This document shows, in pieces, positions 29,771 to 34,250 of a stretch of DNA of 64,000 nucleotides. Numbering within the stretch: the stretch's first letter is position 1; each line of letters starts with the position of its first letter. The position numbers were made by a program, and so were the translations under genes. Under the pieces are notes generated by a model. It was not told the DNA's origin. It saw nothing but the letters and a program-made list of their open reading frames with translations, and searched no databases. Origin of the DNA: Puia sp. (GTDB lineage Bacteria; Bacteroidota; Bacteroidia; Chitinophagales; Chitinophagaceae); contig JARLGZ010000235.1 of NCBI GenBank assembly GCA_031292515.1, positions 1-64,000 on the forward strand. The letters run 5' to 3'.

Positions 29771-30853
29771 TTAAAACAACCTCCCCTGCTCTCCCGGCCT
29801 CATAAACTTTGTGGTATCCAACTCCCACCTTTCCGCATTAAGACCGTACTTTTTTGTATAGCGCGCATACTGCTGAGCTACGAGCTGGGCGATATTCCCT
29901 TCTCCGCGCATCCTCACTCCCCATCGGCTGTCATTGACCTTTCCATCATGGCTGGCTTCGATCAGATGCCAGACTTTGTCGGCCCTATCCGGAAAATTTT
30001 TATAGAGCCAGTCGTGGAAAATGAGCTTGATGGCTCCGTTGAGGCGGATAAACGTATATGCGGAGAAGCTAGCGCCGTTCTCTGAAGCCGCCTTCATGAT
30101 CCTTTGCATCTCGTGTTCGTTGAGGCCCGGGATCATAGGCCCCAGCATGACACCCATACGAACCCCCGCCTCACTCAACTCCCGGATCACCCGTAAACGT
30201 TGTTTCGCCGTAGTGGTACGAGGCTCCATGACCTGCCTGAGATCTTCCTCGAAAGAGGTGATCGACACCAGGATAGAGACCAGTTTTTTTTCGCCCATTT
30301 TTACAAGCAGGTCTTTATCGCGCAGGATGGCGGCATTTTTCGTGATCATACCGATAGGCTGGTTGAACTCATGACATACTTCCAGCAACTGCCGGGTAAT
30401 GCCAAACTTCCGTTCCGCAGGTTGGTAGCAATCGGTGTTGCCGCTGAGAGAGATAGGCAGGCATTGCCATTTCGGGTTCATCAGGAATTTCCGCAGCAGC
30501 TGCGGCGCATTCTTCTTGACGATGATCCTACTCTCGAAATCCAGGCCTGCGCTATAGCCCAGGTATTCATGCGAGTTCCGGGCATAACAATAGATACACC
30601 CATGTTCACATCCCTGGTAAGGGTTCATGCTATACCACATGCCGACATCGGGGCTCTCCACTTTGTTGACGATCCCTTTTGCTTCCTGCTCGATGTATTG
30701 CGTCTGCACATCCGTCTCTATCCAGTCGTCGATGCCCTCCACGTGTTCTCTGACGATCTCATTTTTGAGAAATCGGTTTTTCGGGTTGTACTGGGCGCCG
30801 CGGCCCTTACGATATTGGGCAAGGGCTTCCTCATCCCCGTTTTGCTCAGGCAT
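29771..30853 (-). CDS. PA0069/Rv2578c family radical SAM protein
   Basis: A 360-residue radical SAM protein. The iron-sulfur motif is YQGCEHGCIYCYARNSHEY, with C82, C86 and C89. SLSGNTDCYQPAERKFGIT near 142, VSITSFEEDLRQVMEPR near 195 and MLGPMIPGLNEHEM near 240 are typical of this family. The proteins resemble spore-photoproduct-lyase-like enzymes but no substrate is proven. Context: two LigT-like genes and umuDC lie just upstream, which suggests a nucleic-acid-related role (inference). It reads away from them on the same strand as the LigT genes. Confidence 0.88.
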   Translation of the reverse strand: MPEQNGDEEALAQYRKGRGAQYNPKNRFLKNEIVREHVEGIDDWIETDVQTQYIEQEAKGIVNKVESPDVGMWYSMNPYQGCEHGCIYCYARNSHEYLGYSAGLDFESRIIVKKNAPQLLRKFLMNPKWQCLPISLSGNTDCYQPAERKFGITRQLLEVCHEFNQPIGMITKNAAILRDKDLLVKMGEKKLVSILVSITSFEEDLRQVMEPRTTTAKQRLRVIRELSEAGVRMGVMLGPMIPGLNEHEMQRIMKAASENGASFSAYTFIRLNGAIKLIFHDWLYKNFPDRADKVWHLIEASHDGKVNDSRWGVRMRGEGNIAQLVAQQYARYTKKYGLNAERWELDTTKFMRPGEQGRLF

Positions 30854-30926: not shown

Positions 30927-31643
30927 CTAAAACAATAACTCACCCTGCCGGGTCGCTACCGGCAGGTTCATAAACTCAAAACGCTGCGCAATCTGCCAGG
31001 CCATATCGCCCGTCCTTCTTTTCAGCAACAACATGCTGTCTGCAATGAAGCGGCCCGTGAAAGACTTGTTGCTGTATTCCAGCCATCCCTTCTCATATTG
31101 CCAGGGAACGAGCTTGCGGGCAATGGTCAGGTGCGGCTCATCAATAAAATGCGGCTTGTGATCCTTATCCAGTTTCATAAGACTCTGGATCGCGCGCACT
31201 TCTTTTACCAACCCGCGGATAGGTAATTTGCTGACAACATTGATGAAGATCGTATGGGAGGGAAAGCTGCCAAAGTCCTTCAGCTCCACTTTAAAAGGGC
31301 AATAGCCCATGCTAATCGTCTTCAACCGGTTTACGATGCGTTCTTCCATCATCTCCAACTGCGTGAATTTCGCGATCGTCACATGCGGTTTGCCCCATTT
31401 TGCCGTGGCCGCCTTATACTCGTCATAAAAGTCCGTCTTGACCTGCATGATCTTATTGCGTAATTCCTCATGCGGGTTCAGTACCAGCAAATATTCGCTC
31501 GTGTATAACTTATTTCCAAAGGCCTCGCGGAATGCCTTTGGCATTTCATTGGTATTCAACTGCATTTTGAAGGTATCGTGCAGGCTTACAGGAAACTCCT
31601 TAAGCCGCCTCCCGGGGGTGGTTTGAAAGATGTTCTTTTTCAT
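30927..31643 (-). CDS. 2'-5' RNA ligase-like (LigT/2H phosphoesterase) protein
   Basis: A 238-residue 2H phosphoesterase. Both catalytic H-x-T motifs are intact: GKPHVTIAKF (H87) and EPHLTIARKL (H171). YLLVLNPHEELRNKIM near residue 51 is the conserved first strand. Such enzymes open or form 2',5'-linked RNA ends or cleave cyclic phosphates. The N-terminal 45 residues precede the fold and are not part of it. It lies 73 bases after the radical SAM gene's start and 103 bases from a paralogue. Confidence 0.85.
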   Translation of the reverse strand: MKKNIFQTTPGRRLKEFPVSLHDTFKMQLNTNEMPKAFREAFGNKLYTSEYLLVLNPHEELRNKIMQVKTDFYDEYKAATAKWGKPHVTIAKFTQLEMMEERIVNRLKTISMGYCPFKVELKDFGSFPSHTIFINVVSKLPIRGLVKEVRAIQSLMKLDKDHKPHFIDEPHLTIARKLVPWQYEKGWLEYSNKSFTGRFIADSMLLLKRRTGDMAWQIAQRFEFMNLPVATRQGELLF

Positions 31644-31746: not shown

Positions 31747-32370
31747 CTACCCGGGTACAAAATGAAAAATATTGACGGTCTTGCAGGCGTCGAAAGCATG
31801 CTCTCTTTTTAACAATACCAGCTCGCTGACCCGGAAGGAATCATGAAAGTCTTTCCGTGAATAATCGGGCATGGCCCGGCTGTACACCTGCTCCGTCAGG
31901 CTTCCCGCAATGCTCAGGTAGGGGCTGCTGATCAGCTCCGCGGGAGGCCATCCCGAAGACCGGATAAAATCATCGATAGTCTTTAGCTGCCTTGCCAGCT
32001 CGCGGAATGGCCCGGGATCCTGAACCCGGAGGTAGATCGTATGAGGCGGAAACCCGCTGTAGTTGTTTAGCGTGACGTCAAAACTCTTATTGCGGCTGCA
32101 GATTCGCTCTATCCAACGGATCAGGGTGTCTTCCATGGCCTCGCCTGCCTGAAAACTCCCTATGGTGATATGCGGTTTATTACGCACCGGACCCGTAAGA
32201 CCATAGTCCTGCGAAAATTGCTGCTGTTCATCCAGCAGTTTGTCGCGCAACTCGCCGGCGGGGTAGACGACAAGCAGATATTCCGCCCGCCTGGATCGTT
32301 CGGCTCTTTCCCCGGAAACCGTCTGCGGGGGAAAAATAGAGATAGGAGATCTTACCAGCCCGGTATTCAT
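31747..32370 (-). CDS. 2'-5' RNA ligase-like paralogue with one catalytic His replaced
   Basis: A 207-residue relative of the neighbouring LigT-like protein. The first motif is NKPHITIGSF (H67), but the second reads SPYLSIAGSL, so Tyr151 replaces the His of the H-x-T/S pair. YLLVVYPAGELRDKLL near 31 aligns with the neighbour's first strand. With one catalytic His gone, classical 2H chemistry is doubtful; it may bind RNA or act as a partner of its paralogue. It is divergent from umuD, sharing the 113-bp region with a 6-bp palindrome. Confidence 0.82.
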   Translation of the reverse strand: MNTGLVRSPISIFPPQTVSGERAERSRRAEYLLVVYPAGELRDKLLDEQQQFSQDYGLTGPVRNKPHITIGSFQAGEAMEDTLIRWIERICSRNKSFDVTLNNYSGFPPHTIYLRVQDPGPFRELARQLKTIDDFIRSSGWPPAELISSPYLSIAGSLTEQVYSRAMPDYSRKDFHDSFRVSELVLLKREHAFDACKTVNIFHFVPG

Positions 32371-32408: not shown

Positions 32409-32425
32409 TACTAAATAAATTAGTA
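32409..32425. promoter_or_regulatory. Palindrome in the umuD divergent promoter region
   Basis: TACTAA and TTAGTA flank five A/T bases. A direct repeat TTAG-(C/T)-ATAA also occurs at 32397-32405 and 32420-32428, 23 bases apart. The location, 59 bases before umuD and 39 before the LigT-like gene, fits an operator for both. No LexA gene is in the window, so the regulator is unknown. Confidence 0.45.
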
Positions 32426-32483: not shown

Positions 32484-32918
32484 ATGGAGATCGAGGAATT
32501 CCAAAGCATGCACTATAAAGGCAGCAAACACTTTACCCAATGGGAGATCCCCACCGCTAACGCCACCGGTTTCGGCGCCGCGGCAGATGATTATATGGAA
32601 AGAGGTATCGACCTGAATGAACAGCTGATTCGCAACAAGCCCGCTACCTTCTTCCTGCGCGTCAGCGGGGACGCGATGACGGGGGCCGGCATTTTTAGCG
32701 GTGACACCGTGATCGTAGACCGTTCCATCAAGGCGGTAAACGGCAAAATAGTGATCGCGGTCCTGAATGGGGAAATGCTGATCCGGCGTTTTGAGAAAAC
32801 CTTTTCAAAAATCAGGCTGGTGCCGGAGACGCCCGGTCTTTCCCCCATCGACGTAGACTTGTCGGGCGCAGAGTTTTCGATCTGGGGGGTGGTGACCTAC
32901 GTCATACACAGTCTCTGA
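32484..32918 (+). CDS. umuD: UmuD/LexA-fold protein lacking both catalytic residues
   Basis: A 144-residue protein that aligns without gaps to E. coli UmuD across the fold, offset by four. The cleavage-site region is ANATGFGAAADDY (T28-G29 at the position of C24-G25). The catalytic Ser60 position is Ala64 in VSGDAMTGAG, and the catalytic Lys97 position is Arg101 in GEMLIRRF. Both changes are clear in the DNA (GCG; CGG). Normal UmuD is cut after RecA contact to make UmuD', part of polymerase V. This form should be unable to cut itself. It is followed directly by umuC. Confidence 0.88.
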   Translation: MEIEEFQSMHYKGSKHFTQWEIPTANATGFGAAADDYMERGIDLNEQLIRNKPATFFLRVSGDAMTGAGIFSGDTVIVDRSIKAVNGKIVIAVLNGEMLIRRFEKTFSKIRLVPETPGLSPIDVDLSGAEFSIWGVVTYVIHSL

Positions 32919-32927
32919 CCATTTTTA

Positions 32928-34250
32928 ATGACTATTGCTATACCAGACAATGATTTTATGCAAGCCATCGTCGATTGCAACAGCTTCTATTGCTCCTGTG
33001 AACGGTTGTTCCGGCCCGATCTGCGAAACCGCCCCGTCGTAGTGCTTAGCAACAACGACGGCTGCATCATCTCCCGCAGCGACGAAGCGAAAAAACTAGG
33101 CGTGGGCATGGCCGGCCCTTATTTCCAGGCACGGCACCTCATCGGGAAGAACGATGTCGCCGTCTTTTCTTCCAACTACCCTCTCTATGGAGATCTCAGC
33201 CGGCGGGTGATGGATACGCTGAGGATATTGACGGAACACACGAAAGAAAATAGAAAAGTAGAAGTCTATTCCGTCGATGAGGCCTTCCTGGACCTCAGTG
33301 ATATTCCACCACGCGAACTCTACGAATATGCCCTGCATATCAGGAATACGGTAGAGCAATGGACGGGTATCTCCGTCTCGGTCGGCGTGGCGCCGACCCG
33401 GACGCTCGCCAAACTGGCGAACGGAATGGCCAAAAAGAATAAAGAAGCGACCCGGTGTGTCGTGGCACTGTTGACACAGGAAGAGCAGCGGATCGCCTTG
33501 CAGCAGACCCGGGTGGATAGCATTTGGGGCGTAGGCAGGTCCTACGCGACCAAACTGATCAATTGGGGGATCACCAGCGCCTGGGAACTCTGTAACATGC
33601 CGGAAGCATGGGCCCACAGGAACATGGGGGGCGTAGTAGGCGTCAGGCTGGTGCGTGAGCTCAGGGGGATCCCTGCAATCGTCATGGAAGAAGAGCTCGT
33701 CAATAAAAAAATGATCGCTACCACGCGCATGTTCGGTCGCCCTGTCACAGAATTATACGAGCTGAAAGAAGCAGTCGCTACCTATATATCCAGGGCGGCG
33801 GAGAAACTGCGTCGCCAGCAGAGCGCCGCCGGGATCGTCAGCGTATTCATCGTACCCAAAGAACAGGATCATTCGGCAGATTTCAAACACGGCGCCACCG
33901 TCAGCAGCTACATCACCCTGCCAAAACCCACCGCCCTTACCCACGAGCTGATCAAGGCCGCGGTCGGGCTGGTGGAGGGGCTCTTCGAAAGAGGCAAGGA
34001 ATACAAAAAAGCCGGCGTCATGCTCAGCGGGCTGGTTCCCGACGATTCCGTCCAGGGCAACCTCTTCGCCCCGGCTTCGCAAAACCAGCATCGCTTCCTC
34101 ATGCATACCCTCGATAATATCAACTTCAGCATGCGCGACGATGCCGTGAAATTTGGTTCCTCCGGCACCGACAAAAACTGGAAGATGCGGCAGGAACTGC
34201 GTTCAGGAAGATACAGCACACGATGGGAGGAGCTGCGGCAAGTGAAATAA
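32928..34250 (+). CDS. umuC: Y-family DNA polymerase V catalytic subunit UmuC
   Basis: About 440 residues. AIVDCNSFYCSCERLFRP supplies the first catalytic Asp (D16), VVLSNNDGCIISRSDEAKK follows, and VYSVDEAFLDLS supplies D117-E118. The helix-hairpin and little-finger regions follow, e.g. SVGVAPTRTLAKLANGMAKK near 153, ending in a C-terminal UmuC-type extension. All catalytic residues are present, in contrast to its umuD neighbour. The start at 32928 is nine bases after umuD; the Met at 32958 is an alternative closer to the E. coli start. It performs translesion DNA synthesis. Confidence 0.93.
   Translation: MTIAIPDNDFMQAIVDCNSFYCSCERLFRPDLRNRPVVVLSNNDGCIISRSDEAKKLGVGMAGPYFQARHLIGKNDVAVFSSNYPLYGDLSRRVMDTLRILTEHTKENRKVEVYSVDEAFLDLSDIPPRELYEYALHIRNTVEQWTGISVSVGVAPTRTLAKLANGMAKKNKEATRCVVALLTQEEQRIALQQTRVDSIWGVGRSYATKLINWGITSAWELCNMPEAWAHRNMGGVVGVRLVRELRGIPAIVMEEELVNKKMIATTRMFGRPVTELYELKEAVATYISRAAEKLRRQQSAAGIVSVFIVPKEQDHSADFKHGATVSSYITLPKPTALTHELIKAAVGLVEGLFERGKEYKKAGVMLSGLVPDDSVQGNLFAPASQNQHRFLMHTLDNINFSMRDDAVKFGSSGTDKNWKMRQELRSGRYSTRWEELRQVK

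Follow-up and report, generated by a model that had tools for sequence, protein, structure and literature searches.

In the textbook account, SOS mutagenesis is locked post-translationally, through the RecA-driven self-cleavage of UmuD. HumD, a UmuD-like accessory, needs no cleavage. In E. coli, the uncleavable UmuD variant S60A is reported to reduce UV mutagenesis strongly (PMC3901139), and the variant K97A to hold UmuC at the membrane (PMC4552617). A third variant, UmuD T14A L17A F18A (UmuD 3A), is full-length and non-cleavable and is termed a UmuD-prime mimic: according to PMC5342242, docking of its arm on the core is lost. In the published model of Pol V (UmuD'2C), a UmuD' arm reaches into the UmuC cleft between palm and little finger (PMC12926913). 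Synechocystis LexA is described as a natural S24 protein without the Ala-Gly site and the catalytic Ser (PMC4759255), and lambda cI A111T, a mutant allele of a phage repressor with P1 Ala replaced by Thr, as the ind- substitution at the site of RecA cleavage (PMC4752277). In the literature searched (mostly open-access main texts), no description of UmuDs lacking the Ser-Lys dyad was found.

The window, that is, the whole stretch of 64,000 nucleotides of Puia DNA analyzed here, contains an umuDC operon that shares with E. coli UmuD/Pol V the S24 fold, the operon with umuC, the SOS-type promoter, and the clamp-type motif and C-terminal tail of UmuC. Unlike E. coli UmuD, the window protein has no Ser-Lys dyad, carries Thr-Gly in place of Cys-Gly, has another arm and would have no route of its own to UmuD'. 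The features are as follows.

32411..32423, + strand: CTAAATAAATTAG, exact match to the CTAA-N5-TTAG box of non-canonical LexA in Bacteroidetes, starting 73 bases before the umuD start
32484..32918, + strand: umuD-like gene, 144 amino acids, Ala64/Arg101 replacing the Ser/Lys dyad (ORF, profile and alignment)
32532..32573, + strand: arm segment FTQWEIPTANATGF, codons 17-30, with the motif [FY]-x-Q-x-x-[VI]-x-x-A-[ND]-A-T-G-F
32565..32570, + strand: Thr-Gly, codons 28-29, aligned with the scissile Ala/Cys-Gly bond
32673..32675, + strand: codon 64 (GCG, Ala) at the position of the catalytic Ser60 of E. coli UmuD (phmmer alignment)
32784..32786, + strand: codon 101 (CGG, Arg) at the position of the catalytic Lys97 of E. 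coli UmuD (phmmer alignment)
32928..34250, + strand: umuC, Y-family polymerase, 440 amino acids, with palm motifs, the clamp-type motif QGNLF and a C-terminal DUF4113 tail

The alignment of the window UmuD with E. coli UmuD' by phmmer covers residues 29-142 and has its first gap only after residue 101, so the constant offset of four given in the preliminary description holds up to that point. The same alignment confirms the placement of Ser60 and Lys97, which we take to be the catalytic residue numbers of E. coli UmuD, and both are indeed substituted, as had been claimed. Since two or more base changes separate CGG from any Lys codon, Arg101 is not a one-base error. The sole Pfam domain is PF00717 (85.5 bits) and there is no N-terminal DNA-binding domain, which sets the protein apart from UmuDAb and LexA-type repressors; it likewise differs from Synechocystis LexA, a transcriptional regulator with a similar natural loss of site and dyad residue (PMC4759255), in having no HTH and in standing beside umuC. 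The HumD model NF051876 gives 67.9 bits, under its cut-off of 120. The phage P1-type HumD (L330), similar in that it is a UmuD-like accessory not needing cleavage, starts at the cleavage point (Met-Gly-Phe) and has Ser and Lys at the dyad positions, whereas the window UmuD has an arm of 28 residues before Gly29 and no dyad. An internal start at Met38 was considered and rejected, with Ala at that place in four of 22 aligned members. In the AlphaFold model the block means are 78-94 from residue 61 on, while residues 1-51, i.e. the arm, are of low confidence (pLDDT <50); the top PDB match of the model in Foldseek is E. coli UmuD' (1ay9). The UmuD fold is thus retained, as stated in the preliminary description. 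Judged by its sequence, the window protein is a UmuD by descent and not an autoproteolytic one, and with both catalytic residues replaced its self-cleavage, already denied in the preliminary description, is very unlikely. The NCBIfam label "autoproteolytic subunit" (NF007621), assigned with 128.4 bits at a cut-off of 110, is therefore misleading for this protein.

A search with the window UmuD protein matched 52 of 98 genomes (its own genome counted). A contig scan with peptide patterns covering neither residue 64 nor residue 101 confirmed at least 268 relatives, and among the best 80 of these at least 268 loci Arg101 was present in all 80, residue 64 was Ala in 58, Ser in 20 and Thr in two, and Thr-Gly stood at the cleavage point in 76. 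Many record titles of these 80 loci named Chitinophagaceae or the genera Puia, Flavitalea, Niastella, Terrimonas, Ferruginibacter, Segetibacter and Flavihumibacter, and the remaining ones only Bacteroidetes or uncultured bacterium. In a UmuD tree that sampled all 51 rows with Ser and Lys at the dyad positions (Ser/Lys proteins) and 35 of 84 Ala/Arg rows, the window-type proteins formed a single clade (58 sampled rows, SH-aLRT 100) with none of the 51 Ser/Lys proteins inside. The clade group of our survey was defined by Arg, which makes its Arg count circular, and the independent figures are those of the 80 loci and of the tree.

The Ser/Ala state of residue 64 changed at least six times on a tree of 121 rows, all of which have Arg in common, and a relative 94% identical to the window UmuD (L004) has Ser at this position. 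The replacement of Lys by Arg is thus the constant loss, and the Ser position seems free to vary. The condition named in the preliminary description as refuting it, close relatives with Ser and Lys and the same gene order, turned out mostly in its favor: Lys was found in none of the 58 clade rows of the tree and in none of the 80 loci, but Ser occurs in L004 and in 20 of the 80. Sequencing error or isolated decay is ruled out by the clade-wide Arg101, the tree and the shared changes at the cleavage site. The clade profile matched 81 genomes of the family, 70 of them once. Two matches were seen in the other 11 (G052, G243, G473, G576, G590, G593, G648, G697, G699, G729 and G738), the pair of G243 consisting of one dead-type (L142) and one Ser/Lys protein (L181).

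A phage origin of the clade UmuD was considered as well and rejected: a scan of viral contigs with the clade alignment gave 38 pattern hits and no confirmed relative, and the 70 phage records with a match were all less than 60% identical. All phage (n=4) and plasmid (n=3) records that were read have Ser and Lys at the dyad positions.

In the window, umuC starts nine bases past the umuD stop codon and is complete, with the Pfam domains IMS, IMS_C and DUF4113 all present, in agreement with the operon with an intact umuC described before. A same-strand umuC was found within the retrieved stretch around umuD in 104 of 121 clade members, and none was seen in 17. The clade UmuCs retain their motifs (palm Asp in 94 of 95, SVDEAF-type motif in 85 of 95).

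Several observations concern the neighborhood of these genes. In several clade members umuD and umuC are separated by a gene resembling a Y1 (IS200-type) transposase; the copy at L019:2013-2492 matches Pfam Y1_Tnp, and ORFs similar to it by eye were seen in L017, L024, L067, L091, L114 and L218, as well as in L128, where umuC is out of reach. An ORF of another type (YFHIYNRGVN...) lies between the two genes in L107, L121, L124 and L215, the L107 copy having no Pfam hit. Insertion into this one spot of an SOS operon is thus recurrent. Beside the window umuDC, the minus strand encodes a radical SAM protein of the PA0069 family (477.4 bits) and two 2'-5' RNA ligase/LigT-like proteins (29771-30853, 30927-31643 and 31747-32370), and in L034, L040 and L136 umuD is followed by a radical SAM-like ORF similar by eye to the window neighbor. 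In L026, L028 and L029 a dead umuD is followed by an ORF resembling an ECF sigma factor by eye in a stretch without umuC; a whole-genome search found no UmuC in the corresponding genomes (G023, G031 and G022).

The arms were compared after alignment on the conserved Gly (120 clade rows, 67 Ser/Lys rows and 33 rows of f44, a family in another class of Bacteroidota); four clade and nine Ser/Lys rows without the anchoring Gly or with a short arm were left out, these nine including both Ser/Lys proteins with Thr at P1 (L282 and L283), as were two gappy rows. The clade motif stands where the Ser/Lys UmuDs have an arm of the Leu-Pro-Phe type and a Val-x-Ala-Gly site. The arm motif [LIVFY]-P-[FLYVIWM] was present in 56 of 67 Ser/Lys, two of 120 clade and none of 33 f44 proteins. 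P1 is Thr in 114 of 120 clade proteins and in all 33 f44 proteins; in the Ser/Lys set, 66 of the 67 rows carry Ala there. When all 76 Ser/Lys proteins are counted, 70 have Ala at P1, two Thr, one Ser and one Lys, and two are unaligned; given the two with Thr, this residue alone is no proof of lost cutting. A Val, Ile or Leu occupies P3 in all 67 Ser/Lys proteins and in none of the 120 clade proteins (Asn in 97, Asp in 19), and P3 is hydrophobic in 15 of 33 f44 proteins. For the window UmuD, the earlier statement that the cleavage-site Gly is retained is correct (Gly29), but beyond this Gly the site is not preserved: the residues at the bond are Thr28-Gly29 and neither Ala-Gly nor Cys-Gly, Asn stands at P3, and the arm lacks the Pro motif. 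Taken together, the alignments indicate that the cleavage determinants (dyad, P1, P3 and arm motif) are lost as a set in the clade.

The arm that replaced them is itself conserved, with an aromatic residue at -12 in 115, Gln at -10 in 118, Val or Ile at -7 in 117 and Ala at -2 in 118 of 120 clade proteins. At 50-60% core identity, the mean identity over 24 arm residues is 51% in the clade, 29% in Ser/Lys and 27% in f44 proteins, and at 60-70% core identity it is 54%, 33% and 33%, respectively, which suggests that the clade arm has been kept for a non-cutting role at deep distances. At 70-80% core identity the difference is gone (clade 52%; Ser/Lys 50%, 29 pairs; f44 58%, 26 pairs).

The presence of the arm motif was tallied against that of umuC in 120 clade rows with enough flank (in four rows the flank was too short). 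Motif and umuC in reach occurred together in 102 rows, the motif without umuC in 11, neither in five, and umuC without the motif in two (Fisher p = 0.0004, for a table that includes known artefact rows). Both rows of the last kind are artefacts (variant spelling in L092, masking in L037), and whole-genome search showed L012 to be falsely counted as having no umuC. Whole genomes were then tested for UmuC in 12 cases where umuC does not lie directly downstream, with L062, L077, L085, L096 and L112 left out. Among six genomes with an intact arm, five have a matching UmuC (G045, G219, G039, G653 and G683) that is 61-67% identical to the window UmuC and lies within 3 kb of umuD in four (on the opposite strand in three) and about 90 kb off in one; no UmuC was found in the sixth, G023, which is 78% complete and whose arm is drifting by eye. 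None of the six genomes with a scrambled arm (G022, G031, G740, G697, G738 and G593) has a matching UmuC: three have no UmuC at the threshold, two of these being draft assemblies of 380 and 930 contigs, and three have only another UmuC type, 43% identical and adjoining a Ser/Lys umuD. For this difference (5/6 against 0/6) the one-sided exact test gives p = 0.008. It seems that the uncut arm is maintained by way of its own UmuC, and the tendency of the arm to persist only with the matching UmuC speaks for a Pol V partner active without being cut.

Transcription of the operon appears to have stayed under SOS-like control. Bacteroidetes non-canonical LexA is reported to bind CTAA-N5-TTAG, with Chitinophagaceae among the families with large regulons (PMC8565304). 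The box before the window umuD is the only match in 64 kb and by itself not significant. An exact box lies within 150 bases upstream of umuD in 116 of 121 clade members (0.61 expected from base shuffles), in seven of 76 Ser/Lys relatives and in none of 33 f44 members. The only other PF00717 match in the genome of the window is L002, a LexA-like protein with HTH_3 and S24 domains, which retains GDSM, VYKR and the Ala-Gly site and whose gene is preceded by the box CTAAATAAGTTAG. With a putative operator before it and a matching S24 repressor encoded in the same genome, the window umuD would belong to the CTAA-N5-TTAG regulon. The repressor is apparently self-cleavable; the transcription lock looks intact and the proteolytic one does not. 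As a side observation, ACATAT/ATATGT elements are repeated just before f44 umuD (for example in L171, L170 and L164) and are possibly the operator of f44 LexA-like proteins.

We therefore propose, with a probability of roughly 0.55, that the window encodes a Pol V operon whose small subunit lacks self-cleavage, that this UmuD, its N-terminal arm rebuilt, serves uncut as the working partner of the UmuC encoded with it, and that activity is gated by SOS-like transcription and possibly by RecA, not by proteolysis. The dyad, the scissile residue, P3 and the arm motif are lost and the fold, umuC and the box are kept in the sequences compared, which also tie the arm to UmuC. From this we infer that UmuD is not cut in the cell, and the uncut complex would be active in lesion bypass. 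The rebuilt arm could do, uncut, the same as the UmuD' arm in the palm/little-finger cleft of UmuC, or more. Pol V activity would be gated through the CTAA-N5-TTAG box and the LexA-like repressor, and RecA binding to UmuC may gate it too. By analogy, the clade would present in nature the same kind of change as UmuD 3A, with the docking motif and cleavage both gone; 3A likewise is full-length and uncut with changed arm-docking residues, but it is engineered and altered in only three arm residues, whereas the window type is natural, clade-wide and has lost the dyad as well (PMC5342242). The "constitutive regulator" of the preliminary description is too loose a term for a protein whose arm is mostly kept with the matching UmuC and whose SOS-like box is retained.

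The effects of S60A and K97A in E. coli imply that uncut UmuD could equally be a brake, i.e. a permanent inhibitor or storage subunit, with UmuC used only once UmuD is degraded or out-titrated. Full-length UmuD is described as restraining UmuC in E. coli (PMC3901139, PMC4552617), and the tie between the arm and the matching UmuC would suit a brake no less than a partner. Most genomes, however, have a single clade-profile match and thus no second UmuD to make the active form, and the sole other S24 protein of the window genome is an HTH repressor, yet the UmuC motifs are kept across the clade. On balance we consider a brake unlikely.

A further explanation is that UmuD is cut in trans, with the active site supplied by a different S24 protein, for example the LexA-like repressor, so that UmuD-prime would still be made. 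A partner whose site works is reported to cleave UmuD S60A in trans (PMC5342242). All 24 genomes tested encode one or more additional S24 proteins (residues were read for a few), the LexA-like protein of the window genome retains Ser, Lys and Ala-Gly, and the two Ser/Lys UmuDs with Thr at P1 suggest that Thr may be tolerated. The loss of P3 and the arm motif nevertheless argues against a substrate of this kind, as does the lack of a second UmuD in the window genome, and to our knowledge subunit exchange between a UmuD and an HTH repressor has not been described; cutting in trans thus seems distinctly improbable. The active form might also be made in another way, as the preliminary description had suggested, if a protease of an unrelated kind, be it Clp, Lon or a damage-induced peptidase, recognized and trimmed the rebuilt arm. 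The conservation of the arm and its dissimilarity to Ser/Lys UmuD arms would agree with such trimming, as would the Lon and ClpX signals described in E. coli UmuD arms (PMC5342242), but no recurring protease gene was noticed beside the operon in the stretches read, and we give this possibility little weight. That the gene is dying out is hardly credible, since it is open and conserved across the family, with pN/pS of about 0.2 in the core and 0.37 in the arm (synonymous sites saturated, a few f44 rows mixed in) and the box kept clade-wide, even though some copies are scrambled where the matching umuC is gone (L029, L233-L236) and copies of three f44 genomes contain stop codons (G174, G320 and G767).

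The dyad was also lost elsewhere in Bacteroidota. The f44 proteins have ETGF arms, and their 33 distinct UmuDs are Ala/Arg in 21 cases, Gly/Arg in four, Ser/Cys in three, Asp/Cys in three, Glu/Arg in one and Glu/Cys in one. In a UmuC tree, f44 groups with the Ser/Lys lineages f42 and f49 (95/92), and the Chitinophagaceae clade with f8 (99/97), whose four UmuDs are Gln/Arg or Asp/Asp. A constraint uniting the dead groups lowers the log-likelihood by about 17 units, and the AU test of a single origin gave p = 0.035 (with L051, without f8) and p = 0.069 (with f8, without L051), L051 being of unsure placement; none of 200 bootstrap trees united the Chitinophagaceae-type and f44 dead UmuDs. A single origin is thus disfavored, and the f44 loss is probably independent of the Chitinophagaceae one, with two origins favored by the UmuC data, the columns of the UmuD tree being too few to decide origins. 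In f44 genus g138 (L173, L274, L276 and L278), a dead Gly/Arg umuD lies in a stretch without umuC and is followed by a TetR-type regulator (Pfam, L274) and an ORF like an ABC1/AarF-type kinase by eye.

Two Chitinophagaceae UmuDs, L248 (Ala/Arg) and L249 (Asn/Arg), start at Met-Gly-Phe, i.e. already cut, and the UmuCs that go with them fall together with the UmuC of L050, a Ser/Lys form (100/99); by this grouping, these pre-cut UmuD' forms clearly lost the dyad independently. The starts of L281 (Ala/Arg), L296 (Phe/Gly) and L052 (Ser/Arg) likewise lie near the cleavage point. The Chitinophagaceae forms L248, L249 and L281 start at the cleavage point, as the HumD L330 does, but lack the dyad. 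Tentatively, and with less than even confidence, we suggest that proteolytic licensing of Pol V was abandoned at least two and probably at least three times in Bacteroidota: in the lineage of the Chitinophagaceae clade and f8, with the uncut arm rebuilt as a UmuC-specific element; in f44, mostly with Ala/Arg and Thr at P1; and in the pre-cut, dyad-less UmuD'. The uncut arm would then be an activating part of the polymerase complex, and mutagenesis would be switched on by transcription alone.

UmuD, the SOS box and dead S24 proteins are already known as parts, and lambda cI ind- shows the same change of P1 from Ala to Thr, but as a mutant allele of a phage repressor (PMC4752277); what is new is a clade-wide, apparently uncuttable Pol V subunit with a rebuilt arm. 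In a large bacterial group with type strains in culture, the lock seems to have been removed by a coordinated loss, and the polymerase and its SOS-type promoter were kept. The clade makes it testable why uncut UmuD inhibits in E. coli, and whether control of transcription is by itself enough to keep an error-prone polymerase in check. Many bacteria of the family appear to have given up the textbook "cut to switch on" step.
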